Assembly (NCBI RefSeq): GCF_035989285.1
Contig: NZ_CP108513.1
Location: 806,001 to 870,000 of the forward strand
Source: Streptomyces sp. NBC_01235
Lineage (GTDB): Bacteria > Actinomycetota > Actinomycetes > Streptomycetales > Streptomycetaceae
Direction: 5' to 3'
Length of the DNA: 64,000 nt
The notes beneath the pieces are model-generated. The model made no database searches, was not told the DNA's origin, and was given only the letters and a program-made list of their open reading frames with translations. Shown here piece after piece: positions 51,839 to 64,000 of the stretch. The position numbers and the translations under genes were made by a program. How positions within the stretch are numbered: the first letter of the stretch is position 1; each line of letters starts with the position of its first letter.

Positions 51839-53548
51839 TCAACTGGTGGCGCAGGCACCGCCGTTGAGGGTGAACGCAGTCGGTGCGGTGTTGGTCGCGC
51901 CCTTGCTGCCGATGAAGCCGACGGTGACCGAGCCGCCGGCGGGGACGGTGGAGGTGTAGGAGGCGGGGGCGACGCTCACCGTGCCGCCGCTCTGGGTGGC
52001 GGTCCCGCCCCACATGTTGGTGACGGTCTGACCGTCGGCGAACGCGAAGACCAGCTTCCAGCCGCTGATGGCGGAGGCGCCGGTGTTGCGCAGCGCGATC
52101 TCGCCCTGGAAGCCGCCCGGCCACTCCCCCACGACGCGGTAACCGACGGAGCAGGCCACAGCCGGCGCGCTGCCGGTGGTGACGTTCACCGTGGCCGAGC
52201 GGGCGGAGCGGTTCCCGGCGGCGTCGCGTGCGTAGACGGCGAAGGTGTACGCGGTGTTAGCCGTCAGGCCGGTCACGGTCGCGGTGCTGGTGGTGGACGC
52301 GGCGACATCGGTCTCGGTCGTTCCGCTGATCCGTACGACGTCGTAGCCGGCGACGCCGACGTTGTCGGTGGCGGCGGTCCAGGTGAGGGTGGCGGAGGTG
52401 GCCGTCACGGCGGAGGCGGCCGGGGTGCCGGGGGTGGTCGGTGCCTGGGTGTCGCCCGGGGTGCCGCCGCCGAAGATCGTGGCTTCCTTGGCGGTCTGGG
52501 CGATGCCGTTGACGCCGTTGAAGACGCGCTGGCCCCACGAACTGAGCTGCGTGGGATCGAAGTTGAGCGTCAGGTCCAGGACCGGGTCGGTGTTGCCGCT
52601 CCAGGACCAGGCCAGGTAGCCGAGCCCCAGCTGCTGGGCGGTGGCCATCATGGTGTCCTCGTCGGGGTCGCCCCACTGGTCGGCGGGGCCGCCGAACTCA
52701 CCGATGAGGATGGGGAGTTTAGCGTTGACGAAGGCGTTCAGGTAGTCGGTGATCTCCGCCGCGGTGTCGTAGACGCTGTACATGTGGATCGAGAAGATCA
52801 GGTTGCCGGTGGGGTCGGCCGCGTAGACGGACTGAGCGTTGGCACGCATGACGCCCTGAAGGTCCTGGCCCCAGTTGGGCGCGTCCACCATGATCGTGTG
52901 CTCGAAGCCGGCGTTGCGCAGTTTCTTGATCGCGGCGGTCGTGGGGGCGGTCCACCCCTCGGGGCTGGTGTTGCCCCAGGGCTCGTTGCCGATGTTGACG
53001 ATGATGTAGTTCTCCTGGCCGGCGAGCACGTCCTTCAGACCGATCCAGTAGTCGGCCGCCTGGTCGAGCGTGCCGGCCGCGCTGTCCTCGCCGTAGCCGG
53101 TGGTGTCGTGCACCTCCAGAACACAGATGAGCCGGTTGGCCTTGCACTGGGCGACGACGTTCGCCACGTCGGCGGCGCTGTTGGCGCTCCAGCGGTGGCC
53201 GTCGGCGAGGACCACACGCACGGTGTTGGCGCCCATCGCCTTGATGTCGGCGAGCGACTGCTGCGTCCGGCCCTGATACCAGGTGTGGGCGTGGTTGACA
53301 CCGCGCATGACGAAGTCGTTCCCGTTGCCCTCGACCAGGCGGCCGTTGCTGATGTGGAGGCCGGTGGCGAGGGTGCCGGACGACCGGGCCGGGGCCGGGG
53401 GCTGGGCCTGCGCGACGGCCGGGCAGAGAGCACCGACGAGGACCATCAGGCCGAGGAGGGCCGCGAGCCTGGTCAGCAGGCTGGTCAAGGGGCGTGTGCG
53501 CGGCGTGCGTCGTAACGTGCTGCTTGTCGTGCTTCTTGTCGTTCTCAC
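51839..53548 (-). CDS. Secreted GH5 (subfamily 8-like) beta-mannanase with Fn3 and CBM2
   Basis: The 569-residue precursor has a signal peptide (LLTRLAALLGLMVLVGALCP). The GH5 domain (about 55-345) contains MRGVNHAHTWYQGRTQQSLA and VVLADGHRWS, typical of mannanases. YIIVNIGNEPWGN holds the acid/base Glu and PILIGEFGGPADQWG the nucleophile Glu. An Fn3 domain (APTTPGTPAASAVTATSATL) links to a CBM2 (CSVGYRVVGEWPGGFQGEIA). It hydrolyses beta-1,4-mannan. The GTG at 53548 has TGGAG upstream. A perfect CebR-type box lies 36 bases upstream, so cello- or manno-oligosaccharide induction is likely. Confidence 0.92.
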   Translation of the reverse strand: MRTTRSTTSSTLRRTPRTRPLTSLLTRLAALLGLMVLVGALCPAVAQAQPPAPARSSGTLATGLHISNGRLVEGNGNDFVMRGVNHAHTWYQGRTQQSLADIKAMGANTVRVVLADGHRWSANSAADVANVVAQCKANRLICVLEVHDTTGYGEDSAAGTLDQAADYWIGLKDVLAGQENYIIVNIGNEPWGNTSPEGWTAPTTAAIKKLRNAGFEHTIMVDAPNWGQDLQGVMRANAQSVYAADPTGNLIFSIHMYSVYDTAAEITDYLNAFVNAKLPILIGEFGGPADQWGDPDEDTMMATAQQLGLGYLAWSWSGNTDPVLDLTLNFDPTQLSSWGQRVFNGVNGIAQTAKEATIFGGGTPGDTQAPTTPGTPAASAVTATSATLTWTAATDNVGVAGYDVVRISGTTETDVAASTTSTATVTGLTANTAYTFAVYARDAAGNRSARSATVNVTTGSAPAVACSVGYRVVGEWPGGFQGEIALRNTGASAISGWKLVFAFADGQTVTNMWGGTATQSGGTVSVAPASYTSTVPAGGSVTVGFIGSKGATNTAPTAFTLNGGACATS

Positions 53549-53583
53549 TGCGACTCCAGAAGTGAGGCCAAGAAACGGGTGTG

Positions 53584-53597
53584 TGGGAGCGCTCCCA
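53584..53597. promoter_or_regulatory. Perfect CebR-type operator before the mannanase gene
   Basis: TGGGAGCGCTCCCA is a perfect 14-bp palindrome identical to the known streptomycete cellulase operator. It places the mannanase in the same presumed regulon as the GH6 gene. Confidence 0.92.
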
Positions 53598-53649
53598 TAA
53601 AGCCATCGCGTCAAGTACACGTCAAGACATCGCGCACGGAGATAAAGAA

Positions 53650-53692: not shown

Positions 53693-54976
53693 TCAGGCGA
53701 GGGTGACCTCGACGGGCAGCTTCTTGATGCCGTTGACGAAGTTGGAGCGCACGCGCGGGACGTCGCCGGCCAGGCGGATGTCGGCGAGGCGGGGAACGAG
53801 TTCCTCGAACATGATGCGGATCTCGGTGCGGGCGAGCAGGTTGCCCAGGCACAGGTGGGGGCTGCCCTTGCCGAAGGTGACGTGGTCGTTGTGCTGCCGG
53901 GCGACGTCGAAGTCGTAGGGGTTGCCGAAGACCTCCTCGTCACGGTTGCCGGAGGCGAACCACATCACGACCTTGTCGCCCTCCTTGACCCGCTTGCCGC
54001 CGAGTTCGACGTCCCGGGTAGCGGTGCGCCGGAAGTGGTAGACGGGTGAGGCCCAGCGCAGGAACTCCTCCACCGCGGTGGGGATCAGGGACGGGTCGTC
54101 CTTGAGCCGGGCCAGCTGCTCGGGGTGCTGGAGGAGGGCCAGCATCGAGTGGGTGATGGTGTGCCGGGTGGTCTCGTTGCCGGCCACGACCAGGAGCAGG
54201 AAGTAGCTGTCGAAGTCCTGCGGCGAGAGCGGGACTCCGTCGCGCGGGGTGGTGTTGACGAGCTTCGAGACCAGATCGCTGCCCTCACCCCCTCGCCGCT
54301 GACGTGCCAGCTCCCGGCCGTACTCGAAGACTTCGAGCGAGGCGGGCGAACGGAACGGCAGGTCGCGGTACTTCTCGCTCTCCGCGCTGTACAGCAGGAC
54401 GTCCGCGTAGTCGGGGTCGGTGTTGCCGATGATGCGGTTGCCCCAGTCGATGAGCTGCTGGTTGTCCTCCGGCGGGACGTCCAGCAACCGGGCCAGCACG
54501 TTGATGGGGAAGTCGGCGGACACCTCCTTGACGAAGTCGAAGCTGCCCTTGGCGAGGGCCGCGTCCAGTGTCTTCGCCGTCAGACCGCGCAGGAAGTCGG
54601 CGTAGCTGTTGATGACACCGGCGCCGAACTGGCGCTGGATCACGCTGCGCAGGGCCCGGTGGCGGACGCCGTCCAGCTCCAGGATGGAGGCGCGCTTCTT
54701 GATCTGGTCGTCGTCGACCTCTTCGAGATTGACGAACCTGGTGGAGGTGAAGGTCTCGGCGTCGCGGTCCACGCGGGCGATGTCGGCGTGCCGGGTCACC
54801 GCCCAGAAACCGGAGTTGGGGGCCTCCTCGGGCTGCCAGTGCACCGGGTCCTCGTGGCGCAGGGTGTGGAACATGCGCCAGGGGGTGACCCCGTCGGTGA
54901 AGTTGTCCAGGTCGGCGAGGTCGACGTCGGCGAGCGGCATGGGTTCGCTCACGGCGGGGGTCAGGATCTCGGTCAT
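53693..54976 (-). CDS. Cytochrome P450
   Basis: This 427-residue soluble P450 has the I-helix oxygen-binding motif VVAGNETTRHTITHS, ExxR in LRWASPVYHFRRTATRDVEL-adjacent EEFLR, and the heme loop FGKGSPHLCLG with Cys376. It should hydroxylate or dealkylate a small aromatic or similar substrate with electrons from the ferredoxin and reductase at 56753 and 56948. The ATG at 54976 is chosen because GGAG precedes it. It follows the glutamine-synthetase-like gene by 97 bases containing repeats, and is transcribed with it to the terminator at 53650. Confidence 0.92.
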   Translation of the reverse strand: MTEILTPAVSEPMPLADVDLADLDNFTDGVTPWRMFHTLRHEDPVHWQPEEAPNSGFWAVTRHADIARVDRDAETFTSTRFVNLEEVDDDQIKKRASILELDGVRHRALRSVIQRQFGAGVINSYADFLRGLTAKTLDAALAKGSFDFVKEVSADFPINVLARLLDVPPEDNQQLIDWGNRIIGNTDPDYADVLLYSAESEKYRDLPFRSPASLEVFEYGRELARQRRGGEGSDLVSKLVNTTPRDGVPLSPQDFDSYFLLLVVAGNETTRHTITHSMLALLQHPEQLARLKDDPSLIPTAVEEFLRWASPVYHFRRTATRDVELGGKRVKEGDKVVMWFASGNRDEEVFGNPYDFDVARQHNDHVTFGKGSPHLCLGNLLARTEIRIMFEELVPRLADIRLAGDVPRVRSNFVNGIKKLPVEVTLA

Positions 54977-55027
54977 GCGTGGCTCCAAGAGGGCACAGAT
55001 GTCACAGCGGTCACGGCCGTCATGGCA

Positions 55028-55075
55028 GTCACGTCTGTCGTGGCTGTCGTGGCCGTCACGTCTGTCGTGGCTGTC
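55028..55075 (-). repeat. 21-bp direct repeat between the GS-like and P450 genes
   Basis: The segment 55028-55048 is repeated exactly at 55055-55075 (27-bp period), inside a longer run of GTCAC/GTCGTGGC-type units from about 55000. The second copy includes the stop region of the GS-like gene. It may act as an intergenic attenuator or simply be slippage-prone DNA. Confidence 0.85.
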
Positions 55076-56423
55076 ACAGGTGGTTGGCGTACTCGGTGAA
55101 CTCCCAGTCGGTGACGTGCCGTTGGAAGCGTTCGACCTCGTTGCGCTTGTAGGTGAGGAAGGAGCTGGTGAAGCCCTTGCCGAGGAGGTCGGTCAGGGCG
55201 GTGTCCGCCTCCAGCGCGTCGAGCGCGTCGGACAGGTCCATGGGCAGGACGGTCGCCTTCGCGGTGTCGTAGCCGTAGCCCTCCAGCGGCGCGGGCGGCT
55301 CCTCGCCTGCCTCGATACCGAGGAGGGCGGCTGCGACGGTACCGGCGATCAGCAGATAGGGGTTGGCGCCGGCGTCGCCGAGCCGGAGTTCGAGGCGGGC
55401 GCCGGAGCCGCGCTCGGGCGGGACGCGGACCATCGCGCTGCGGTTGTCCAGGCCCCAGTCGACCAGCCAGGGCGCGAGGGTGTCGGGGCCGAAGCGTTTG
55501 TAGGAGTTGACGGTCGGGTTGGCCAGCGCGGCAAGGGCGGGGGCGTGCGCGAGGACACCTGCGACGGCGTGCCGGGCATGGGCGGACAGTCCGTAGGCGC
55601 CCGCTGGGTCGTCGAAGGCGTTGCGGCCCTCGGCGTCCTCGCACGACAGATGGAGGTGGAAGCCGGAACCGCCGGCGTCGTTGAAGGGCTTCGCCATGAA
55701 GGTGGCGAGCCGGCCCTCCCGGCGGGCCAGCTCCTTGATCGCGGCCTTGAAGCGGAAGGCCCTGTCGGCGGCCGACAGCGCCTCCGAGTGCAGGAGGTTG
55801 ATCTCGAACTGGCCACCGTCGAACTCGTGGTTGCCGCTGAGCACGTCGATCTTCAGATCCCGGACGTGCCGCAGGGTGCGCAGCAGGTGGTTGTCGGGGT
55901 CCGCGCGCAGTCCCGCCGTGTAGACGACGCCGCGGTCCCGTGCGTAGCGGCGCCAGCCGCCGGCCGGGTCCGGTTCGCACAGGAAGTACTCCAGCTCGGG
56001 TCCGACGACCGGTCGCAGGTCCCGCTCCCGACATCGCGCGAGGACGCCCCGCAGCAGGTCACGGGGCGACTCCGGGGCGGGAGCCCCGGTGGCGGGGTCG
56101 ACGACGTCCGCGAGACAGGTGGCGACACCGGGCTCCCACGGGAGCGCGACCAGCGTGTCGAGGTCCGGTCGTACGGTGATGTCCGGCAGGCCCGCGTCCA
56201 GGCCTCCCTCGACCGGTACGACGTCACCCTGCGGGCTCGTGTGGTAGACGGCCCGGCAGAAGGCGAGCCCGTGCTCCATGGCACGGGGCAGTGCCTCCAG
56301 CAGCACGTCACGGGCGCGGTCGGTGCCCATGAGATCGGGATAGGTCACCCGGACCACGTCGATGCCGTCGGCGGCGAGCCGCTCCATGGACCGGCGGATG
56401 TCTGGGGTGTCGTGAGCGCTCAC
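55074..56423 (-). CDS. Glutamine-synthetase-family ligase, probable gamma-glutamyl-amine synthetase
   Basis: This 449-residue GS fold reads VVGPELEYFLCEPDP (metal Glu), SGNHEFDGGQFEINLLHSEA (ligand loop), FMAKPFNDAGGSGFHLHLSC (ATP/metal His), NSYKRFGPDTLAPWLVDWGL, RSAMVRVPPERGSGARLELR and DAGANPYLLIAGTVAAALLG. The adenylylation Tyr loop of housekeeping GlnA is absent, and divergence from GlnA suggests an amine other than ammonia. Paralogues in streptomycetes attach glutamate to polyamines or ethanolamine; in aniline degraders a relative activates aniline. The GTG with GAGGAG at 56423 is the start. It is divergent from the ferredoxin operon. Confidence 0.88.
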   Translation of the reverse strand: MSAHDTPDIRRSMERLAADGIDVVRVTYPDLMGTDRARDVLLEALPRAMEHGLAFCRAVYHTSPQGDVVPVEGGLDAGLPDITVRPDLDTLVALPWEPGVATCLADVVDPATGAPAPESPRDLLRGVLARCRERDLRPVVGPELEYFLCEPDPAGGWRRYARDRGVVYTAGLRADPDNHLLRTLRHVRDLKIDVLSGNHEFDGGQFEINLLHSEALSAADRAFRFKAAIKELARREGRLATFMAKPFNDAGGSGFHLHLSCEDAEGRNAFDDPAGAYGLSAHARHAVAGVLAHAPALAALANPTVNSYKRFGPDTLAPWLVDWGLDNRSAMVRVPPERGSGARLELRLGDAGANPYLLIAGTVAAALLGIEAGEEPPAPLEGYGYDTAKATVLPMDLSDALDALEADTALTDLLGKGFTSSFLTYKRNEVERFQRHVTDWEFTEYANHL

Positions 56424-56498
56424 CGATTCTCCTCGGGCGGATTGGACGGGTGGCGAGAAGGCGACGCCGGCCGGGGGCGAGAGGGAGGGCCACTCCGG

Positions 56499-56520
56499 CA
56501 TGTCGTTTGAACCCGAACGG
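56499..56520. promoter_or_regulatory. Operator site A (GS-like gene side)
   Basis: TCGTTTGAACCCGAACGG lies at 56502-56519. Its inverse shares CGTT-GG-T-AAACGACAT with site C. A leftward -35/-10 pair (TTGCGG, TACCGT, 18-base spacing) overlaps it. Probably bound by the TetR regulator encoded at 62481. Confidence 0.6.
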
Positions 56521-56583
56521 TAGGGACGGTGTCCGCCGTCCCGCAAGGGGGCGCCCCTAAAAATTTATCCACCTGGACAGGTA

Positions 56584-56612
56584 TTGACCAGGGTCGAGCG
56601 GCTTCCTATGTT
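56584..56612 (+). promoter_or_regulatory. Sigma-70-like promoter of the ferredoxin operon
   Basis: TTGACC (56584-56589) and TATGTT (56607-56612) are separated by exactly 17 bases. The -10 element overlaps operator site B. The ferredoxin start is 141 bases downstream, so a long leader is expected. Confidence 0.65.
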
Positions 56613-56630
56613 GTTTGAAGCCAAACGAGT
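56608..56630. promoter_or_regulatory. Operator site B (ferredoxin operon)
   Basis: GTTTGAAGCCAAAC is a near-perfect palindrome. On the reverse strand the 23-base site matches site C at 63210 in 20 of 23 positions. It overlaps the -10 box, a position suited to repression. Confidence 0.7.
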
Positions 56631-56752
56631 CAGGGGTGCGGCTCCTCCGCACCCCTTTGGCCGGGGCCCGGCCGCGGCATCGCAACGCTGTCGGGCCCCT
56701 CTCCCCCGCTCTTCGCCCCGCTCCGACGCCCTCACCCTCTGGAGGAACGGCC

Positions 56753-56941
56753 ATGAAGGTCGTCGTCGACATGAACAAGTGCCAGGACCACGGCCAGTGC
56801 GTCTTCGCGGCCCCGGACGTCTTCTCGCTGGACGCCGACGGTCGCCTGGCCTACGCCCCCGACCCCGACGACGCGCTGCGCGACGAGGTCGAGGAGGCCG
56901 CGGACGTGTGTCCGCTCCAGGCCATCCGGATCGAGGACTGA
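56753..56941 (+). CDS. 3Fe-4S (single-cluster) ferredoxin
   Basis: This 62-residue ferredoxin reads VDMNKCQDHGQCVFAAPDVF (Cys-x5-Cys) and ADVCPLQAIRIED (final Cys-Pro), the three-cysteine pattern of P450-reducing [3Fe-4S] ferredoxins of actinomycetes. GGAGG is 7 bases before the ATG. It passes electrons from the reductase 6 bases downstream to the P450 encoded divergently. Confidence 0.95.
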   Translation: MKVVVDMNKCQDHGQCVFAAPDVFSLDADGRLAYAPDPDDALRDEVEEAADVCPLQAIRIED

Positions 56942-56947
56942 GGCCCC

Positions 56948-58201
56948 ATGACCGGAACCGCCACCGGACGCATCGTCGTCGCGGGCGCCTCGATGGGCGG
57001 TCTGCGCGCCGCCGAACAACTCCGCGCGGCGGGCTGGACCGGCGCCGTCACGGTCGTCGGGGACGAACCCCACATGCCCTACAACCGGCCGCCCCTGTCC
57101 AAGGAGGTGCTGGCCGGGAAGGCGCCGTTCGAGTCGCTGGCCTTCACCCCGAAGGCGGCCGCCGCCGACGTGGAGTGGAGGCTCGGCACGAAGGTGGTCG
57201 CGGCCCGCCTCGACCGGCGGACCGCCACACTCGACGACGGTTCGTCGCTGCCCTACGACGGGCTGGTCGTCGCCACCGGGATGCGGCCCCGGCGGCTGCG
57301 CTGTCCGGGCCCGCTCACCGGCCGCCACACCGTCCGCACGCTCGCCGACGCCCAGGGGCTGCGCCGGGAACTGACCCGGCCCGGTGTCCGTGTGGTCGTG
57401 GTCGGGGCCGGTTTCATCGGCTGCGAGGTCGCCGCGACGGCCGTCGGCCTGGGCGTCACCGAGGTGACGGTCGTCGATCCGCTGCCGTTGCCCATGGTGG
57501 GCCCGCTGGGCGAACTGCTCGCCCGTGCTCTGCTGAAGCGACACGAGGAGCGCGGAGTGCGCTTCGCGCTCGGCGTCGGCGTGAGCGGCTTCGAGGGCGA
57601 CGGCGGGGGTCAGGGTGTCGGCGGTGCGGACGGGGGCCGGGTCACCGGTGTGCGCCTGGCCGACGGTCGCGTGCTGCCCGCCGACGTCGTGGTCGAGTCG
57701 GTCGGCTCGGTCGCCAACGTCGAGTGGCTGGACGGCAACGAGCTCGACCTCACCGACGGTGTGCTCACCGACGAACACCTGCGGGTCGGGGGACGTCCTG
57801 AGGTGGTCGCGGTCGGCGACGTGGCCCGATTCCCCAACGCCCGCTACGACGGCGTACCCCGCAGGGTCGAGCACTGGTCCATCCCCACCGACACCGCCAA
57901 GCACGCGGCGAAGGCCCTCGTCGCCCATCTCAGCGGCACCGAAGGGGAGTCGACTCCGTTCGCCCCGCTGCCCACGTTCTGGAGCGACCAGCACGAGTTC
58001 CGGTTGCAGTCCTTCGGGGCGCCGGTGCTCGGCCGGGACGACGTCCGTGTCCTGGACGGCGACCCGGACGGGGACGTCCTCGTCGGCTACCACGTCGACG
58101 GCCGGCTGGTCGGTGTCGTCGCGCTCGGCGGCCACACCACCGCCATGGGCGCCGCCCGTTACCGCGCCCAGCTGCTGAAGCAGCCCGCTCTCACTTCGTA
58201 A
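56948..58201 (+). CDS. NAD(P)H-dependent FAD ferredoxin reductase
   Basis: This 417-residue reductase has the FAD motif IVVAGASMGGLRAAEQLRAA, PYNRPPLSKEVLAG, the NAD(P) motif VVVVGAGFIGCEVAATAVGL and VVAVGDVARFPN for flavin. It is of the rubredoxin/putidaredoxin-reductase type found beside P450 ferredoxins. Its C-terminal reductase domain reads PTFWSDQHEFRLQSFGAPVL. Residues 220-232 contain a Gly-rich insert (EGDGGGQGVGGADGG). Confidence 0.93.
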   Translation: MTGTATGRIVVAGASMGGLRAAEQLRAAGWTGAVTVVGDEPHMPYNRPPLSKEVLAGKAPFESLAFTPKAAAADVEWRLGTKVVAARLDRRTATLDDGSSLPYDGLVVATGMRPRRLRCPGPLTGRHTVRTLADAQGLRRELTRPGVRVVVVGAGFIGCEVAATAVGLGVTEVTVVDPLPLPMVGPLGELLARALLKRHEERGVRFALGVGVSGFEGDGGGQGVGGADGGRVTGVRLADGRVLPADVVVESVGSVANVEWLDGNELDLTDGVLTDEHLRVGGRPEVVAVGDVARFPNARYDGVPRRVEHWSIPTDTAKHAAKALVAHLSGTEGESTPFAPLPTFWSDQHEFRLQSFGAPVLGRDDVRVLDGDPDGDVLVGYHVDGRLVGVVALGGHTTAMGAARYRAQLLKQPALTS

Positions 58202-58211
58202 GGAGCCTCAA

Positions 58212-59024
58212 GTGACCAGAGTCCGCGGTTACTTCCATCCCAAGACGGCGAGCGGTGGCTCGTCGCTCGTCCCCGCCCCGCCCTGGCGCTACTCCGGCGA
58301 TCTGCTCACCGTCGAGTACCGCACGGATCCCTCGCGGGTGCGTGAACTGCTGCCCGAGCCACTGGAGTTGGCCGACGAGGATCCTGGCGCGGTGGCGCTG
58401 ATCTGGGCCGACTGGCAGTCGTGCTCGGCGGCGGGGGCGGAGCTGCTCGATCCTGTGCTGGCGCAGTACAAGGAGGCGTTCGCGGTCGTCCGCTGCAGGT
58501 ACCGGGGGCAGACCTACTCGCGGTGTGTGTACATCTGGGTCGACAAGGACTTCGCCATCGCGCGGGGGCTGCACCAGGGGTATCCGAAGAAGCTGGGCTC
58601 GATCCACCAGACCCGCCCGCACCCGTACGGACCCGCCCCGCGCATCGAGGCGGGCGCCCGCTTCGGGGCCACCCTCGCCGCCGCGGACCGGCGCCTGGCC
58701 CAGACCGTTGTCACCCTGCGCGAGCCGTCCGAGACGAACGGGTTCGTCAATGGGCATGCCATGGCTCATCACCGGTGGCTGCCTTCGATCGAGAAGGGGA
58801 AGGGGCTTGCGCTGGATGAGCTGATCGAGTCGGGAGCGGCTTCTTTCGAGGGCGGGCAACCGTGGGTCGGTGACGCCGAGTTGGAGCTTTTCGAGGCGCC
58901 GACCGAGGAGTTGGCCCGGTTGGAGATTCGTGAGCCCATTGCCGCGTATTACCGGCAGGTGGGGGTTGTCTGGGATGGGGGGCGGCTGTTGGAGGTGGGG
59001 ACTTCAAAAGCGTCTGCCGAGTGA
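58212..59024 (+). CDS. Acetoacetate-decarboxylase-family protein
   Basis: This 270-residue protein has the ADC-family pattern SLVPAPPWRYSGDLLTVEYR, QSCSAAGAELLDPVLAQYKE, CVYIWVDKDFAIARGLHQGY and GYPKKLGSIHQTRPH. The PKK pair matches the Schiff-base lysine region of acetoacetate decarboxylase. Homologues outside solventogenesis act as aldolase/dehydratase-like enzymes on keto acids. Its place in an aromatic ring-cleavage operon suggests handling of a ring-fission keto acid. GTG with AGGAG 7 bases upstream. Confidence 0.85.
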   Translation: MTRVRGYFHPKTASGGSSLVPAPPWRYSGDLLTVEYRTDPSRVRELLPEPLELADEDPGAVALIWADWQSCSAAGAELLDPVLAQYKEAFAVVRCRYRGQTYSRCVYIWVDKDFAIARGLHQGYPKKLGSIHQTRPHPYGPAPRIEAGARFGATLAAADRRLAQTVVTLREPSETNGFVNGHAMAHHRWLPSIEKGKGLALDELIESGAASFEGGQPWVGDAELELFEAPTEELARLEIREPIAAYYRQVGVVWDGGRLLEVGTSKASAE

Positions 59025-59144
59025 TGTCGGTGGTCGGCCGCGGGTTCGTCGTGGCTGGTCGCGCCCACGCGGCGGAGCCGCACATGTCACGGCCCCGCCC
59101 CTGAGTAAGTCACCTCCCCCTCTGTTGTCAGGAGCCCCTCTCCC

Positions 59145-60605
59145 ATGTCCCACACCATCAGCGTCGGCGGTGTTGCCGTCGACACCCGGCACTGGATCGG
59201 CGGTCGGCGCGTCGCCTCCGTCGAGACATTCGCCGACCACTCGCCCATCGACGGCGCCGTCCTCGGGGAGATCGCCCGTGGTGGGCCCGCCGAGGCAGAG
59301 GCCGCTGTCGCCGCTGCCAGGGCGGCGTTTCCCGGATGGGCCGCCACCTCCCGTGCCGAACGCGCCCGCGTGCTGCACGCCATCGCCGACGGTGTCGAGA
59401 AGCGGCTCGAAGAGCTCGCCATCGTCGAGACCATCGACAACGGTGCCCTGCTGCGGTCCCATCGGCGGGGTGTCATGCCCCGCGTCGCGCACAACTTCCG
59501 TTTCTTCGCGGACTGGTTGCTTTCCCTCGGTCACGAGGACTTCGAGACGCGCGGGCACACCAACCACGTCAGCTGGGATCCGGCCGGACCCTGCGTGTTG
59601 ATCACCCCGTGGAACGCCCCTCTCATGCTGGCCACCTGGAAGGTCGCCCCGGCGCTCGCCGCCGGGAACACCGTGGTCCTCAAGCCCGCCGAGTGGTCCC
59701 CGCTGACCGCATCCCTGCTCGCCGACATCGCCGCCGAGGCCGGGCTGCCCGCCGGAGTGCTCAACGTCGTCCAGGGGTACGGCTCGGAGATCGGCGACGC
59801 CCTCACCTCGCACCCGGACGTGCGTCGCGTCAGTTTCACCGGATCGGTGCCGACGGCCAGGCGGATCTCCGCGTCGGCCGCCACCAACCTCACCCCGTTG
59901 AGCCTCGAACTCGGCGGCAAGTCACCCCTGTTGGTGTTCGCGGACGCGGATCTCGACCTTGCCGTCGACCTCGCGGTGGAGCAGTACGACAACGCCGGGC
60001 AGGTCTGTCTCGCCGCGACCCGGATCCTCGTCGAGGAGTCCGTCGCCGAGGAGTTCACCCGGCGCTTCGTGGCGAAGGCCTCCCGGCTCACCCAGGGCGA
60101 TCCGCGGGAGGAGGCCACCGACCTCGGGCCCAACATCCATCCCCGTCAGCTGGAGAAGATCGACGGGTTCGTGCGGCGGGCGGTCGAGGCGGGTGCCCGC
60201 ACCCTGCTCGGCGGGCACCGGGGGGACGGCCAGTACTACGCGCCGACCCTCCTCACCGACGTCGCCCAGGACTCGGAGATCGTGCAGGAGGAGGTCTTCG
60301 GGCCGGTGCTGACCCTCCAGACCTTCGCCGACGAGGACCAGGCCGTCCGGCTCGCCAACGACACCCGCTTCGGGCTCGCCGCCACCGTCGCCACCGGCGA
60401 CCGCGAGCGCGCCGAACGCGTCACCGGCCGGCTCGTCGCCGGCACGGTCTGGGTCAACTGCTTCTTCGTCCGCGACCTCCAGGCGCCCTTCGGCGGCTCC
60501 CGCCGGTCCGGCGTGGGGCGCGAGGGCGGCACCTGGAGCTTCGACTTCTACTGCGACCTGAAGAACACCGTGACCGCGCCGACCGGATGGACCGACCATG
60601 GGTGA
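59145..60605 (+). CDS. Aldehyde dehydrogenase, HpaE-like (hydroxymuconic semialdehyde type)
   Basis: The 486-residue ALDH has PWNAPLMLATWKVAPALAAG, GNTVVLKPAEWSPLTASLLA, SFTGSVPTARRISAS, the catalytic Glu in LELGGKSPLLVFAD and the catalytic Cys in NAGQVCLAATRILV. The nearest known function by pattern and context is oxidation of 5-carboxymethyl-2-hydroxymuconate semialdehyde after ring cleavage. CAGGAG precedes the ATG by 10 bases. It overlaps the dioxygenase gene by 8 bases. Confidence 0.9.
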   Translation: MSHTISVGGVAVDTRHWIGGRRVASVETFADHSPIDGAVLGEIARGGPAEAEAAVAAARAAFPGWAATSRAERARVLHAIADGVEKRLEELAIVETIDNGALLRSHRRGVMPRVAHNFRFFADWLLSLGHEDFETRGHTNHVSWDPAGPCVLITPWNAPLMLATWKVAPALAAGNTVVLKPAEWSPLTASLLADIAAEAGLPAGVLNVVQGYGSEIGDALTSHPDVRRVSFTGSVPTARRISASAATNLTPLSLELGGKSPLLVFADADLDLAVDLAVEQYDNAGQVCLAATRILVEESVAEEFTRRFVAKASRLTQGDPREEATDLGPNIHPRQLEKIDGFVRRAVEAGARTLLGGHRGDGQYYAPTLLTDVAQDSEIVQEEVFGPVLTLQTFADEDQAVRLANDTRFGLAATVATGDRERAERVTGRLVAGTVWVNCFFVRDLQAPFGGSRRSGVGREGGTWSFDFYCDLKNTVTAPTGWTDHG

Positions 60606-61542
60606 GATCGTCGGGGCGGGACTGCTCGCCCATGTCCCCACCATCATGCTGCCCGAGGCCGACCGGCTGGAGCTGAACGAGGGCAAGGAGATCACCCTCG
60701 TCACCGGGCTCCAGCAGCTCCGCGCAGACGTCTTCGAGCGCGATGGCGCCAACGACTACGACACCGTCGTCGTCCTCGACTCCCACTGGGCCACGACCGT
60801 CGAGTTCGTCGTCACCGCCCAGCGGCGCCGGGCCGGTCTGTTCACCTCCGAGGAACTGCCGCGCGGCATGTGCCGGATGCCGTACGACTTCCCCGGCGAT
60901 CCCGAACTCGCCCACAACATCGCGAAGTTCGCCGACAAGCACGGCACGTGGATCACCCCCATCGAGGACGACTACCTGCCGATCTACTACGCCACCGTCA
61001 ACCTCTGGAAGTTCCTCGGCGAGGGACTGCCCGACAAGCGGTGGGTGACCATCGGCGTCTGCCAGACCGGTGACATGGAGGACCATCTGCGGCTCGGGCG
61101 CGCGCTGGCCGACGGCATCGCCGCCACCCCGGGGCGGCGCGTACTGCTGATCGCCTCCGGCGCCCTGTCGCACACCTTCTGGCCGCTGCGCGAGATCCGC
61201 GACCACGAGGCCAGCGACCCGGTCCACATCCGTACACCGCAGGCCCGCGAGGCCGACCACGAACGCATCGCCTGGTTCAAGGAGGGCCGTCACGACAAGG
61301 TCCTCGACACGATGGACGAGTTCTGGAAGCACAAGCCCGAGGCGAGGTTCTTCCACTACCTGATGATGGCCGGCGCCCTCGGCGAGCAGGCCTGCACCGC
61401 CCGGGCCCGGCAGTACGGGGAGTACGAGAACTCCGTCGGCACCGGCCAGGTCCACCTCTGGTTCGACCGCCCGGCCGACGGCTGGACCGGCACCGGCACG
61501 CCCTCGTCCGGCGCCCCGCACCACCCCCACCGCCGTATCTGA
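60598..61542 (+). CDS. LigB-type extradiol dioxygenase, HpaD-like
   Basis: This 314-residue type III extradiol dioxygenase reads GAGLLAHVPTIMLPEADRLE (iron His), VVLDSHWATTVEFVVTAQRR (second His) and LIASGALSHTFWPLREIRDH (His base). By family it opens 3,4-dihydroxyphenylacetate (homoprotocatechuate) or a similar catechol next to the diol. The Fe(II) triad looks complete. It is translationally coupled to the ALDH gene. Confidence 0.9.
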   Translation: MGEIVGAGLLAHVPTIMLPEADRLELNEGKEITLVTGLQQLRADVFERDGANDYDTVVVLDSHWATTVEFVVTAQRRRAGLFTSEELPRGMCRMPYDFPGDPELAHNIAKFADKHGTWITPIEDDYLPIYYATVNLWKFLGEGLPDKRWVTIGVCQTGDMEDHLRLGRALADGIAATPGRRVLLIASGALSHTFWPLREIRDHEASDPVHIRTPQAREADHERIAWFKEGRHDKVLDTMDEFWKHKPEARFFHYLMMAGALGEQACTARARQYGEYENSVGTGQVHLWFDRPADGWTGTGTPSSGAPHHPHRRI

Positions 61543-61554
61543 GGAGTCACCGTC

Positions 61555-62400
61555 ATGCCCGAGTACCGCCGCATCCTGCTCGACGGCGCCGTCGTCGACA
61601 CCGTCCGGGAGGGCGACGAACTCGTCGCCGGGGACGGCCGCCGCGTCAGGACGCAGGACGCGCGGCACCTGCCGCCGGTGGTCCCCTCCAAGGTGATCGC
61701 CGTCCATCTCAACCACCGAAGCCGTGTCGACGAGTTCCGGATCGAACTCCCGGACACGCCCACGTACTTCCACAAGCCGACCTCCTCCCTCAACTCCCAC
61801 CAGGGCGCGATCGTGCGTCCCGAGGGCTGCAAGTGGCTCAACTACGAGGGCGAGGTCGCCATCGTCATCGGCAGGACCGCGAGGAACATCTCCCCTGCGG
61901 AGGCGGGGGACTTCATCGCGGGCTACACCATCGCCAACGACTACGGTCTGCACGACTTCCGCGACACCGACGCCGGCTCCATGCTGCGGGTGAAGGGCTC
62001 CGACACGCTGTGCCCGCTCGGGCCCGGTCTGGTCACCGACTGGGACTTCCGTGGCAAGCGGCTGCGGACGTACGTCAACGGCGAGGTGGTGCAGGACGGT
62101 TCGACGGACGAGATGAAGTGGGACATGCACTACCTCGTCGCCGACATCGCCCGGACGATCACCCTGTACCCCGGTGACGTGCTGCTGTCCGGGACCCCGG
62201 CCAACTCCCGCCCCGTGCGGCCCGGCGATGTCGTGGAGGTGGAGGTCGAGGGCCTGGGCCGGCTCACCAACCACGTCGTCACCGGTCCGACCGCCGTCCG
62301 CGCCGACGTCGGCGCCCAGCCCACCGAGTCCGAGGAGGTGCTGTCCACCGCGCTCGGCGGCGACTGGGAGTTCCGCGGCATCCGCCCGCCCAGGCGATGA
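61555..62400 (+). CDS. Fumarylacetoacetate-hydrolase-family decarboxylase/isomerase, HpaG-like
   Basis: This 281-residue protein reads PPVVPSKVIAVHLNHRSRVD, FHKPTSSLNSHQGAIVRP, LNYEGEVAIVIGRTARNIS (metal Glu), GYTIANDYGLHDFRDTDAGS, RVKGSDTLCPLGPGLVTDWD and DVLLSGTPANSRPVRPGDVV. This matches the HpaG/FAH group that decarboxylates or isomerises the ring-fission keto acid. ATGA couples it to a possible upstream start of the TetR gene. With the two preceding genes it completes a homoprotocatechuate meta-cleavage core. Confidence 0.9.
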   Translation: MPEYRRILLDGAVVDTVREGDELVAGDGRRVRTQDARHLPPVVPSKVIAVHLNHRSRVDEFRIELPDTPTYFHKPTSSLNSHQGAIVRPEGCKWLNYEGEVAIVIGRTARNISPAEAGDFIAGYTIANDYGLHDFRDTDAGSMLRVKGSDTLCPLGPGLVTDWDFRGKRLRTYVNGEVVQDGSTDEMKWDMHYLVADIARTITLYPGDVLLSGTPANSRPVRPGDVVEVEVEGLGRLTNHVVTGPTAVRADVGAQPTESEEVLSTALGGDWEFRGIRPPRR

Positions 62401-62480
62401 GCGCGGGCGCGTCGCGGCCCGTCCCGTGCGACGCCGCCGTCGTCCCCTCGGCGCGCGGGCGGGCCGGTAGGGTCGCCGTC

Positions 62481-63107
62481 ATGACCGAGTCCGCCGCACA
62501 CCCCGAAGGACGCGAGCCGCGCCGGCGCATGAACTACGGGGAGGGCCGGGAGGCCCTGCTCAACGCCGCCGTACGGGTCGTGGCGCGGGGCGGGCTGCGC
62601 AAGCTCACATACCGGGCCGTCGCACAGGAGGCGGGGACCACGCACGGGCTGGTCGTGCACCACTTCGGCTCGCGGGACGCGCTGATCGAGGAGGCGCTCG
62701 CCCACGCGATCCGCACCTCGCTGAGCACCAGCGCGCTCGAACCCGGCACAGGCGAGGTGGCCGACTTCTCGGCCGGGCTTTCCGAGATGGTCGTCGACGA
62801 CCCGGACATACAGGCCTTCCAGTACGAGCTGCTACTGGAGTCCCGCCGCCGGCCCGAGCTGCTGCCGCAGATCAGGGCCCTGTACGACGACTACTTCGCC
62901 GCGACCGGGCGCGAACTGTCCCGGATCCTCCCCCAGGGTGCCGACCGCGCCCTGACCCGGCTGGTCTTCGCCGCCCTGGACGGGCTCGTCCTGCACCAGC
63001 TCGTCTTCGGTGAGCCCGAGGTCACCGACGGGGCCGTCGCCGAGCTGCACCGGCTGATCCGCCTGCTCCAGGCCGACGAGGACACCGGCTCGGCGTCGGA
63101 ACACTGA
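62481..63107 (+). CDS. TetR-family regulator of the ring-cleavage locus
   Basis: This 208-residue protein has a TetR helix-turn-helix (NYGEGREALLNAAVRVVARG, RAVAQEAGTTHGLVVHHFGS) and a helical ligand domain ending LHQLVFGEPEVTDGAV. An in-frame ATG at 62397 overlaps the previous stop, but the stretch to 62481 is low-complexity, so the later start is preferred. It is the only regulator in the locus and the likely binder of operator sites A, B and C. Confidence 0.88.
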   Translation: MTESAAHPEGREPRRRMNYGEGREALLNAAVRVVARGGLRKLTYRAVAQEAGTTHGLVVHHFGSRDALIEEALAHAIRTSLSTSALEPGTGEVADFSAGLSEMVVDDPDIQAFQYELLLESRRRPELLPQIRALYDDYFAATGRELSRILPQGADRALTRLVFAALDGLVLHQLVFGEPEVTDGAVAELHRLIRLLQADEDTGSASEH

Positions 63108-63209
63108 CCGGTCCGCGGTCGTCCGCGATCGTCCGTGATCGGCCCGTCCTCGGGCACCTCTTGCGCGCACCCCCTTGCCAAACGGATAGTTCCAGCCCAC
63201 CATGGGGCA

Positions 63210-63232
63210 ACTCGTTTGGCCTGAAACGACAT
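63210..63232. promoter_or_regulatory. Operator site C (permease gene)
   Basis: CTCGTTTGGCCTGAAACGAC lies 30 bases before the permease GTG. It is palindromic (CGTTT/AAACG) and matches site B in 20 of 23 positions. A further half-site CCAAACGGA is at 63178. Confidence 0.7.
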
Positions 63233-63262
63233 CCCCTCTTCGCTCTCAGGCAGGTGATCCGC

Positions 63263-64000
63263 GTGGACAGTCAGACGGCGGTCAGGAACCAGACCGCGGC
63301 CGACGCCTCCACCGCAGGCAGGCTCAAGCCCAACTCGCTCGGCGTGCTGGGCATCCTCTTCTTCGTCCTCTCCGCCCAGGCGCCCCTCACCGGCATCGCG
63401 GGCGCCGTCCCCATCTCGGTGGCCCTCGGCAACGGGCCCGCCGCCCCCGCCGCGTACGTGGCCGCCGGCGTGATCACCCTGCTCTTCTCGGTCGGCTTCG
63501 TGGCCATGGGCCGCCATGTGGTGAACGCCGGCGCCTTCTACACCTACATAGGCAAGGGCCTCGGCCGACCCGTCGGCACCGGAAGCGCCGCGGTCGCGCT
63601 CTTCGCCTACTGCGCGATCCAGGCCGCCATGTACGGGCTGTACGGAGCGACCGTGAGCGGCCTGCTGGCGGCCCACACCGGGACGGACGTGCCCTGGTGG
63701 GTGTGTTCCCTGGTCACTATGGCGATCGTGCAGGTCCTGGGCGGCGCGGGCATCGAGATGGGCGCCAAGGTGCTGGCGGTCTTCGTGCTGGCCGAGTTCA
63801 GCATCCTGGCCGTCTTCGCCCTGGTCACCCTCTTCAAGGGCGGCGGCCCGGAAGGGCTCGGCGTCACCGAGTCGTTCTCACCGGGTGCCGCCCTGAAGGG
63901 GGCGCCGGGTGTGGCTCTGATGTTCTCCGTGGCGTCGATGGTCGGTTTCGAGGCGACCGCGATCTACGGCGAGGAGGCGCGCGAGCCCCGCAGGACGGTA
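63263..64000 (+). CDS. APC-family amino-acid/amine permease, cut by window edge
   Basis: The frame is open for 246 codons to the edge. After a short hydrophilic start (DSQTAVRNQTAADASTAGRL), it shows APC-family segments: LGVLGILFFVLSAQAPLTGI, RHVVNAGAFYTYIGKGLGRP, VQVLGGAGIEMGAKVLAVFV and MFSVASMVGFEATAIYGEEA. The GFEATAIYGEE segment before a charged loop is typical of the family. The GTG at 63263 is chosen; another GTG is three codons earlier. With operator C in its promoter it is probably the importer of the amine handled by this locus. Confidence 0.85.
   Translation, partial: MDSQTAVRNQTAADASTAGRLKPNSLGVLGILFFVLSAQAPLTGIAGAVPISVALGNGPAAPAAYVAAGVITLLFSVGFVAMGRHVVNAGAFYTYIGKGLGRPVGTGSAAVALFAYCAIQAAMYGLYGATVSGLLAAHTGTDVPWWVCSLVTMAIVQVLGGAGIEMGAKVLAVFVLAEFSILAVFALVTLFKGGGPEGLGVTESFSPGAALKGAPGVALMFSVASMVGFEATAIYGEEAREPRRTV

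Follow-up and report, generated by a model that had tools for sequence, protein, structure and literature searches.

A Streptomyces gene cluster proposed to degrade tyramine-type amines as gamma-glutamyl conjugates

What does a bacterium degrade with a gene set that joins a ligase of the glutamine synthetase (GS) family and a cytochrome P450 to enzymes resembling those of homoprotocatechuate (3,4-dihydroxyphenylacetate, DHPA) cleavage? The question is raised by a cluster at the end of a 64,000-nucleotide stretch of Streptomyces sp. NBC_01235 (contig NZ_CP108513.1, positions 806,001–870,000 of an 11.09 Mb genome), hereafter the window. The answer that we favour, with a probability of about two in three, is the breakdown of an arylethylamine via gamma-glutamyl conjugates, with tyramine as the likeliest substrate (or dopamine where the P450 is absent).

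Gene content and proposed reactions

An earlier note on the window had proposed an amine ligase, a P450 chain and homoprotocatechuate-type ring cleavage. Reading frames and family matches place the genes that it named about where it had put them, and its two divergent units are borne out: the P450 and ligase genes run on the minus strand, away from a run on the plus strand that extends from ferredoxin to permease. This core holds, but the cluster is not complete at the window end (position 64000), which truncates it, and further genes lie beyond. The inventory of the window genes was thus correct and missed a PuuC/PuuD half past the window as well as a separate 4-hydroxyphenylacetate (4-HPA) operon. 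The features are listed below; for the stretch past the window end, L009, position L009:x equals window position 62999+x.

53693–54976, minus: cytochrome P450 (PF00067)
55074–56423, minus: GS-family ligase (PF00120; GTG start with GAGGAG upstream)
56505–56518: palindrome GTTTG-N4-CAAAC, one mismatch, in the divergent promoter
56565–56579: second dyad TTATCC-N4-GGAyA, between both palindromes, conserved in alignment
56613–56626: palindrome GTTTG-N4-CAAAC, exact, in the divergent promoter
56753–56941, plus: [3Fe-4S]-type ferredoxin (PF13370)
56948–58201, plus: FAD ferredoxin reductase (PF07992 and PF14759)
58212–59024, plus: ADC-superfamily protein (PF06314; best NCBIfam model MppR)
59145–60605, plus: HpaE-like semialdehyde dehydrogenase (best NCBIfam model HpaE)
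60598–61542, plus: HpaD-like LigB-family extradiol dioxygenase (best NCBIfam model HpaD_Fe)
61555–62400, plus: HpaG-like FAA-hydrolase-family decarboxylase/isomerase (PF01557)
62481–63107, plus: TetR-family regulator (PF00440 and PF17940)
63214–63227: palindrome GTTTG-N4-CAAAC, one mismatch, directly 5′ of the permease start
From about 63263, past the window end, to genome position 870,717, plus: APC-family permease (family match)
L009:1856–2566, minus: second glutamine-amidotransferase-like gene, past the window, a cluster member in some genomes
L009:2631–2644: palindrome 5′ of the aldehyde dehydrogenase gene, past the window
L009:2672–4162, plus: PuuC-like aldehyde dehydrogenase (best NCBIfam model PuuC)
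L009:4159–4860, plus: PuuD-like gamma-glutamyl hydrolase (best NCBIfam model PuuD)
L009:5567–6193, minus: MarR-like regulator, past the window

GTG 56423, preceded by GAGGAG, is the probable start of the ligase, so that the divergent promoter would occupy about 56424–56752, and ATG 56753 is the probable start of the ferredoxin.

The reactions, their substrates and their order, all of which we infer, would be the following. The permease would import the amine, and the GS-family ligase would use ATP and glutamate to form gamma-glutamyltyramine, which the P450, served by ferredoxin and reductase, would hydroxylate at ring position 3 to gamma-glutamyldopamine. The LigB-type dioxygenase would then cleave the ring adjacent to the side chain, the HpaE-like enzyme would oxidise the ring-fission semialdehyde, and the HpaG-like enzyme would decarboxylate and tautomerise the product to 7-(gamma-glutamylamino)-2-oxohept-3-enoate. 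From this compound the ADC protein, as a putative hydratase-aldolase replacing HpaH and HpaI, would release pyruvate and gamma-glutamyl-4-aminobutanal. Since the side chain would be CH2-CH2-NH-Glu in place of CH2-COOH, the succinic semialdehyde of the acid route would become gamma-glutamyl-4-aminobutanal, a substrate of PuuC; the PuuC-like aldehyde dehydrogenase would oxidise it to gamma-glutamyl-gamma-aminobutyrate (gamma-Glu-GABA), and the PuuD-like amidase would split the latter into GABA and glutamate, recycling the tag. In carbon terms, a C8 amine would yield CO2 (1), pyruvate (3) and GABA (4). The glutamate tag would block two unwanted cyclisations, that of the amine on the ring-fission aldehyde and that of 4-aminobutanal to a pyrroline. 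Gene set and carbon count point to a phenethylamine skeleton and so favour the tyramine-like substrate that had been suggested before. We have good confidence in an aromatic-amine pathway through gamma-glutamyl intermediates, and moderate confidence in tyramine or dopamine as its substrate and in the ADC step.

The 13 cluster proteins were scanned against NCBIfam and Pfam models with the curated cut-offs as a yardstick; NCBIfam scores are given here as bits reached over the cut-off. Within the conserved block, a P450 with its ferredoxin and reductase is found and neither HpaB nor HpaC, as expected if a P450 replaces the flavin monooxygenase, which the earlier note had supposed. Its nearest solved chains belong to the CYP125/CYP124 group, and its heme cysteine is invariant (100/100 orthologues). 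The ferredoxin carries the motif C-x2-H-x2-C...C, with C10, H13, C16 and C53 kept in 93/93 orthologues, the pattern expected of the [3Fe-4S] type that had been named for it. As for the ligase, it reaches 261/650 bits with the PuuA model, and the DGS[SA] loop, which we take to be part of the ammonium site in GS-family proteins, is absent from 99 of 100 aligned cluster ligases, the protein of L074 having the string somewhere. Among the GS-family proteins of the same genome, the DGSS/DGSA loop occurs in L168, L169 and L173, and is absent from the cluster ligase and its paralogues L170 and L172. The absence of the loop agrees with the idea of an amine-activating enzyme and suggests that the ligase is probably not an ammonia ligase, against which stands its best NCBIfam model, an ammonia ligase (see below).

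The ADC protein had been singled out as an unusual part of the cluster; what had gone unnoticed is its likely role as a hydratase-aldolase that would substitute for HpaH and HpaI. It scores 167/380 bits with the MppR model, so it is no MppR equivalog, and by sequence it is akin to MppR-type aldolases: its top matches are MppR (4jm3), with which it aligns along the whole length, and 6eej/4zbo, and the lysine is conserved. That residue, K126, corresponds to position 156 of the 4jm3 chain, presumably the Schiff-base lysine, and a glutamine lies four residues earlier; K126 and Q122 are both invariant (116/116 orthologues). MppR, Sbi00515 and Swit_4259 are ADC-superfamily aldolase-dehydratases, and the last two names we assume to refer to structures 4zbo/6eej and 5upb, respectively. 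The cluster protein shares with them the family, the lysine and the glutamine four residues before it; the difference is that it is proposed to run in reverse (hydration and retro-aldol cleavage) as an enzyme of a catabolic lower pathway. A partial precedent may exist in Saccharolobus growing on phenol, where, according to an excerpt of PMC7820114, ADC-superfamily genes beside a meta-cleavage pathway are induced about 80-fold and their products are suggested to be aldolases, MppR being cited there as an aldolase.

Scores of the remaining enzymes are 530/638 bits with HpaE for the semialdehyde dehydrogenase, 120/316 with HpaD_Fe for the dioxygenase, 562/850 with PuuC for the aldehyde dehydrogenase and 75/266 with PuuD for the hydrolase, whereas the HpaG-like protein matches a general FAA model best (238/444) and the HpaG C-terminal model next (211/276). 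Residues to which we attribute catalytic or ligand roles, here as in the P450 and the ferredoxin, are invariant: H12, H63, H192 and E248 of the dioxygenase in 122/122 orthologues, and the Cys-His-Glu triads of the PuuD-like hydrolase (91/91) and of the second amidotransferase (25/25). A PuuB oxidase is absent from the 13 proteins scanned.

Conservation and a common promoter motif

Conserved synteny had been proposed as a check. We compared the best 80 of 479 relatives, hereafter the named loci, 65 of which have full flanks; identities below 50% were not counted as matches. HpaE, HpaD and ADC genes are together in 80/80, and all 65 full-flank loci hold GS, ADC, HpaE, HpaD and HpaG genes. The P450, ferredoxin and reductase are present in 63/65, the aldehyde dehydrogenase in 62/65, PuuD in 61/65, and the TetR and permease genes in 59/65. 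The second amidotransferase, divergent from the aldehyde dehydrogenase and perhaps a second gamma-glutamyl hydrolase, accompanies 16/65.

Within Streptomyces, 38 of the 150 genomes carry the HpaD-like gene. Across 396 Actinomycetota genomes (thresholds E≤1e-30 for HpaD-like and E≤1e-60 for ADC), 37 have the HpaD-like gene and 33 the ADC gene: both are found in 32, HpaD alone in 5, ADC alone in 1 and neither in 358 (Fisher p about 1e-40, related genomes not being independent). Outside Streptomyces, HpaD is present in 34 genomes; 30 of them have the ADC gene (E≤1e-20), at 56–65% identity in 29 and 39% in one, and 31 have a PuuD homologue (about 35–50% identity) anywhere in the genome. We also fetched 15 distant regions (L061–L075; HpaD 43–56% identical), where gene order is shuffled and GS is found in 11, P450 in 9, ADC in 10 and a GABA-transaminase-like gene in 6.

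Both units had been expected to share regulation, and one palindrome, GTTTG-N4-CAAAC, is indeed found in the divergent promoter and 5′ of the permease. The window holds four sites with at most one mismatch against 0.29 expected. Upstream occurrences (at most one mismatch, within 250 bases 5′ of the gene) were counted across orthologues, and at the overall rate 4% of genes would have one. The motif was first derived from the conserved ligase–ferredoxin gap, so that its occurrence in this shared interval (GS 87/88, ferredoxin 90/91) is by construction; it also lies 5′ of the permease in 78/83 and of the aldehyde dehydrogenase in 32/86. For the reductase the count is 10/91, the upstream range spanning the short ferredoxin gene, and for HpaE 2/95; there is no site 5′ of the P450 (85), ADC (94), HpaD (95), HpaG (94), TetR (86) or PuuD (86) genes. 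The second amidotransferase has a site in 18/19, mostly the one that it shares with the aldehyde dehydrogenase, which gives no independent count; in 19/21 loci with both genes, the site lies in between. When loci are rearranged (L054–L057, L076, L094, L156), the palindrome remains at the new promoters, and in the distant region L070 an exact copy precedes the ADC gene. These observations indicate that the cluster is probably co-regulated through a common promoter motif.

The binder of the palindrome was sought among the neighbouring regulators, of which neither stands out: a MarR gene is present in 61/99 loci with the site upstream in just 4/61, and TetR genes have the site in 0/86. Matches without evident meaning occur at window 40103, L009:3067 and L009:12848, and counts of the second dyad (TTATCC-N4-GGATA) do not reach significance.

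Variant loci as clues to substrate and product

Six Streptomyces loci (L054, L055, L094, L156, L080, L057) lack the P450, ferredoxin and reductase genes, with no obvious contig end on the P450 side, or nearly so: the L080 contig begins 1.7 kb past GS, where another aldehyde dehydrogenase gene lies, and the L057 stretch ends at a contig end, so that absent genes could lie further on. In five of the six, all except L080, a pyridoxal phosphate-dependent decarboxylase of the tyrosine decarboxylase (TyrDC) type adjoins HpaG, its copies being 80–100% identical to the L055 protein, and no such gene occurs in the 63 P450-bearing full-flank named loci. The nearest solved structures of this enzyme are 6ebn and 5hsi, which we take to be bacterial enzymes of that type, and its best NCBIfam model is tyrosine decarboxylase (125/905 bits). 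One genome, G033, carries both arrangements, with the P450 type in L042 and the decarboxylase type in L057.

A second decarboxylase, of the aromatic-amino-acid decarboxylase (AADC) type, is found in another lineage (L063, L066, L074, L075/L176, L178), with 67–70% identity to the L066 protein. Its nearest solved structures are 4obu and the DOPA decarboxylase 7xin, the NCBIfam model that it matches best is diaminobutyrate decarboxylase (191–210/900 bits), and its gene is flanked by a permease-like gene and P450/GS (L063, L066, L074) or by HpaD and P450 (L075). Two types of aromatic-amino-acid decarboxylase thus adjoin the cluster in different lineages. The P450-less clusters may act on dopamine formed from DOPA, and those with a P450 on tyramine.

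On the product side, a class III aminotransferase adjoins HpaD in L061, L064, L067, L068, L069 and L179 and is nearby in L065, all from one distant family. For the two proteins scanned, GABA-transaminase models rank third after two general models (376 and 349/507 bits), which fits GABA as a product, without proving it. What seems to be an acid-type counterpart is L073, with genes for an HpaB-like protein (363/480 bits), flavin reductase, HpaE, ADC (39%), HpaG, HpaD (43%) and aldehyde dehydrogenase, and no match to GS, P450 or PuuD in the stretch. Such a set would be expected if ADC replaces HpaH and HpaI, and if GS and PuuD serve amine side chains only.

An extra P450, 24–26% identical to the cluster P450, lies between TetR and permease in 11/80 named loci, ten of them with an extra ferredoxin (L043:12135–13497, L092, L097, L100, L105, L115, L134, L136, L137, L142, L148, L151; L043 and L097 are one and the same genome). 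It could possibly perform a second ring oxidation or an O-demethylation.

Competing explanations and known systems

Several observations weigh against a tyramine pathway via gamma-glutamyl conjugates. The solved P450s nearest to the cluster enzyme are sterol or lipid hydroxylases, and phenol ortho-hydroxylation is unusual for bacterial P450s. The best NCBIfam model of the ligase is the type III glutamate-ammonia ligase (306/470 bits), and the solved structures that match it best bear the name glutamine synthetase. More generally, the HpaE/D/G-, PuuC/D- and GS-like names are family resemblances only, because the NCBIfam scores fall below the curated cut-offs. The PuuC label does not discriminate, because PuuC is the best model for the aldehyde dehydrogenase of the acid-type locus L073, too (590 bits), and the one beside the aminotransferase (L061, L068) is best matched by the lactaldehyde dehydrogenase model, with PuuC much lower. 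The best model of the aminotransferase itself is a general one, and L054 and L055 have only a 32% relative. Nor is gene content uniform. A lone HpaD-like gene (57%) is found in 4 of the 38 Streptomyces genomes (L058, L059, L060, L078), the other cluster genes being absent from the fetched stretch; PuuD or the second amidotransferase is found in just 4/15 distant regions, and PuuD and HpaD are at most about 12 kb apart in just 6/34 non-Streptomyces genomes (G321, G404, G485, G494, G507, G531). L080 lacks the permease and the decarboxylase as well as the P450, ferredoxin and reductase, and L057 lacks GS, ADC and P450, which the same genome has in L042. L174 has ADC, GS, P450 and a partial 52% match to the TyrDC type, and HpaD/E/G were not found in its stretch; it is perhaps a decaying or rearranged cluster. 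Its ADC match (L174:9989–10766) is split in two pieces in different frames. Finally, a classical tyramine route may coexist in NBC_01235, given an HpaB and one copper amine oxidase gene elsewhere in the genome.

This HpaB (633 bits, above the cut-off) belongs to a classical-looking 4-HPA operon at about 9.84 Mb (L184:7238–14980), whose other products, named from sequence, are MarR-, flavin-reductase-, FAA-hydrolase-, RraA-, DHDPS- and HpaE-like proteins and a type I ring-cleavage dioxygenase. The RraA- and DHDPS-like proteins stand in place of HpaI, for which there is no match in this genome; for HpaH there is a weak match only (181/352 bits), 0.57 Mb from the cluster. This separate operon suggests that the cluster in the window runs parallel to it and is not the ordinary homoprotocatechuate route. 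That the cluster would simply degrade 4-HPA, with GS and P450 as bystanders or serving polyamine use, is suggested by the HpaE/D/G resemblance and by the same lower enzymes beside HpaB in L073; we consider it quite improbable, since GS is kept with the set in all full-flank loci and shares its promoter palindrome with the permease, and since the HpaD score is far below the cut-off for a DHPA dioxygenase. Greater weight, if still an unlikely reading, goes to the same chain acting on another arylethylamine, such as phenethylamine, 3- or 4-methoxyphenethylamine (the P450 being an O-demethylase), octopamine or norepinephrine, or on a benzylamine analogue, with ligase, dioxygenase and lower enzymes unchanged. 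The CYP125/124 group, to which the nearest solved P450s belong, attacks alkyl groups, and the extra P450 would be as expected of a less hydroxylated substrate requiring a second oxidation; but the TyrDC-type enzyme of the P450-less variants fits DOPA and dopamine, and side chains other than C2 would miss the usual PuuC and PuuD substrates.

The two remaining explanations fare worse. A biosynthetic cluster, making a betalamic-acid- or propylproline-like product from DOPA by extradiol cleavage, is brought to mind by the pairing of a heme hydroxylase with a LigB extradiol enzyme on a tyrosine-derived substrate, which resembles betalain chemistry; it is very unlikely, as semialdehyde dehydrogenase, decarboxylase, aldolase, PuuC, PuuD and permease make up a degradative set and no assembly-line gene is found in the conserved block. 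The analogy with aniline degraders drawn in the earlier note is not supported, and a gamma-glutamylanilide pathway has next to no chance of being correct. GS-family ligase, oxygenase and ring cleavage are common to both; however, the 13 cluster proteins that were scanned include no Rieske dioxygenase, the enzyme that would release catechol, a ring-attached amine would need neither HpaE- and HpaG-type steps nor PuuC nor a gamma-Glu-GABA hydrolase such as PuuD, and aromatic-amino-acid decarboxylases co-occur with the cluster.

Our preferred reading, arylethylamine catabolism via gamma-glutamyl conjugates, proposes that two known pathways are fused in one gene set. With the Hpa pathway the cluster would share extradiol ring opening adjacent to the side chain, followed by HpaE- and HpaG-type steps. 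It differs in having a P450 and not HpaBC, HpaB sitting in the other operon, and presumably in that the amine stays on and is glutamylated, whereas the Hpa route first oxidises it off, that the ADC protein acts for HpaH and HpaI, and that the end product is GABA and not succinic semialdehyde. The classical alternative is represented by the DHPA catabolon of Pseudomonas putida U, reportedly described for tyramine and dopamine by Arcos in 2010. With the Puu/Pau polyamine route, summarised as PuuA-PuuB-PuuC-PuuD in an excerpt of PMC10606097, it shares a GS-family ligase and an APC permease, and seems to share a PuuC-type aldehyde dehydrogenase and a PuuD-type hydrolase; but no PuuB was seen, and a ring-cleavage pathway inserted between ligase and PuuC would generate the aldehyde.

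Other systems share single elements. In mycobacteria, P450, ferredoxin and GS-like genes are clustered for the use of piperidine and morpholine, which recalls the genes for the amine here; those substrates are aliphatic cyclic amines, however, and aromatic ring-cleavage genes are not known to belong to these clusters. No cluster of this kind appeared in the literature among the matches listed. The tyramine-glutamate ligase MfnD has another ligase fold, ATP-grasp, and belongs to coenzyme biosynthesis. Like the proposed reaction it makes gamma-glutamyltyramine, a compound known from methanofuran-type cofactor biosynthesis (excerpt of PMC8141765). It also appears, by title, in metabolomics studies among the matches listed, and no description of gamma-glutamyl tyramine or dopamine catabolism was found in the open-access literature among them. 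Regarding catechols in Streptomyces, the excerpt of PMC9814775 treats catechol and dopamine as elicitors and foreign dioxygenases as expressed enzymes, and mentions no native pathway.

The conserved catabolic pathway is probably one not described so far. A bolder formulation, to which we give somewhat better than even odds, is an undescribed pathway, spread across the Actinomycetota, that degrades tyramine- or dopamine-type amines entirely as gamma-glutamyl conjugates, the tag protecting them through ring cleavage, with an ADC-fold hydratase-aldolase as a new lower meta-cleavage enzyme that also serves the HpaB-type acid version of L073. If true, the textbook Puu and Hpa pathways would be merged into one in which glutamate is a protecting group that can be used again, a defined catabolic job would fall to the ADC superfamily, and soil actinomycetes would have a way to degrade catecholamines from plants and animals. 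Many Streptomyces genes named "3,4-dihydroxyphenylacetate 2,3-dioxygenase" or "catechol 1,2-dioxygenase" would then need new names.

Two minor observations concern neighbouring genes. On the P450 side, the cluster adjoins a gene for a secreted cellulase-like protein (window 51839–53620, judged by eye), which we excluded as a cluster part, as it lies beside the cluster in 1/80 named loci. In one distant family (L175, L176, L178), a second FAA-hydrolase-family gene, 39–45% identical to HpaG, lies near ADC.

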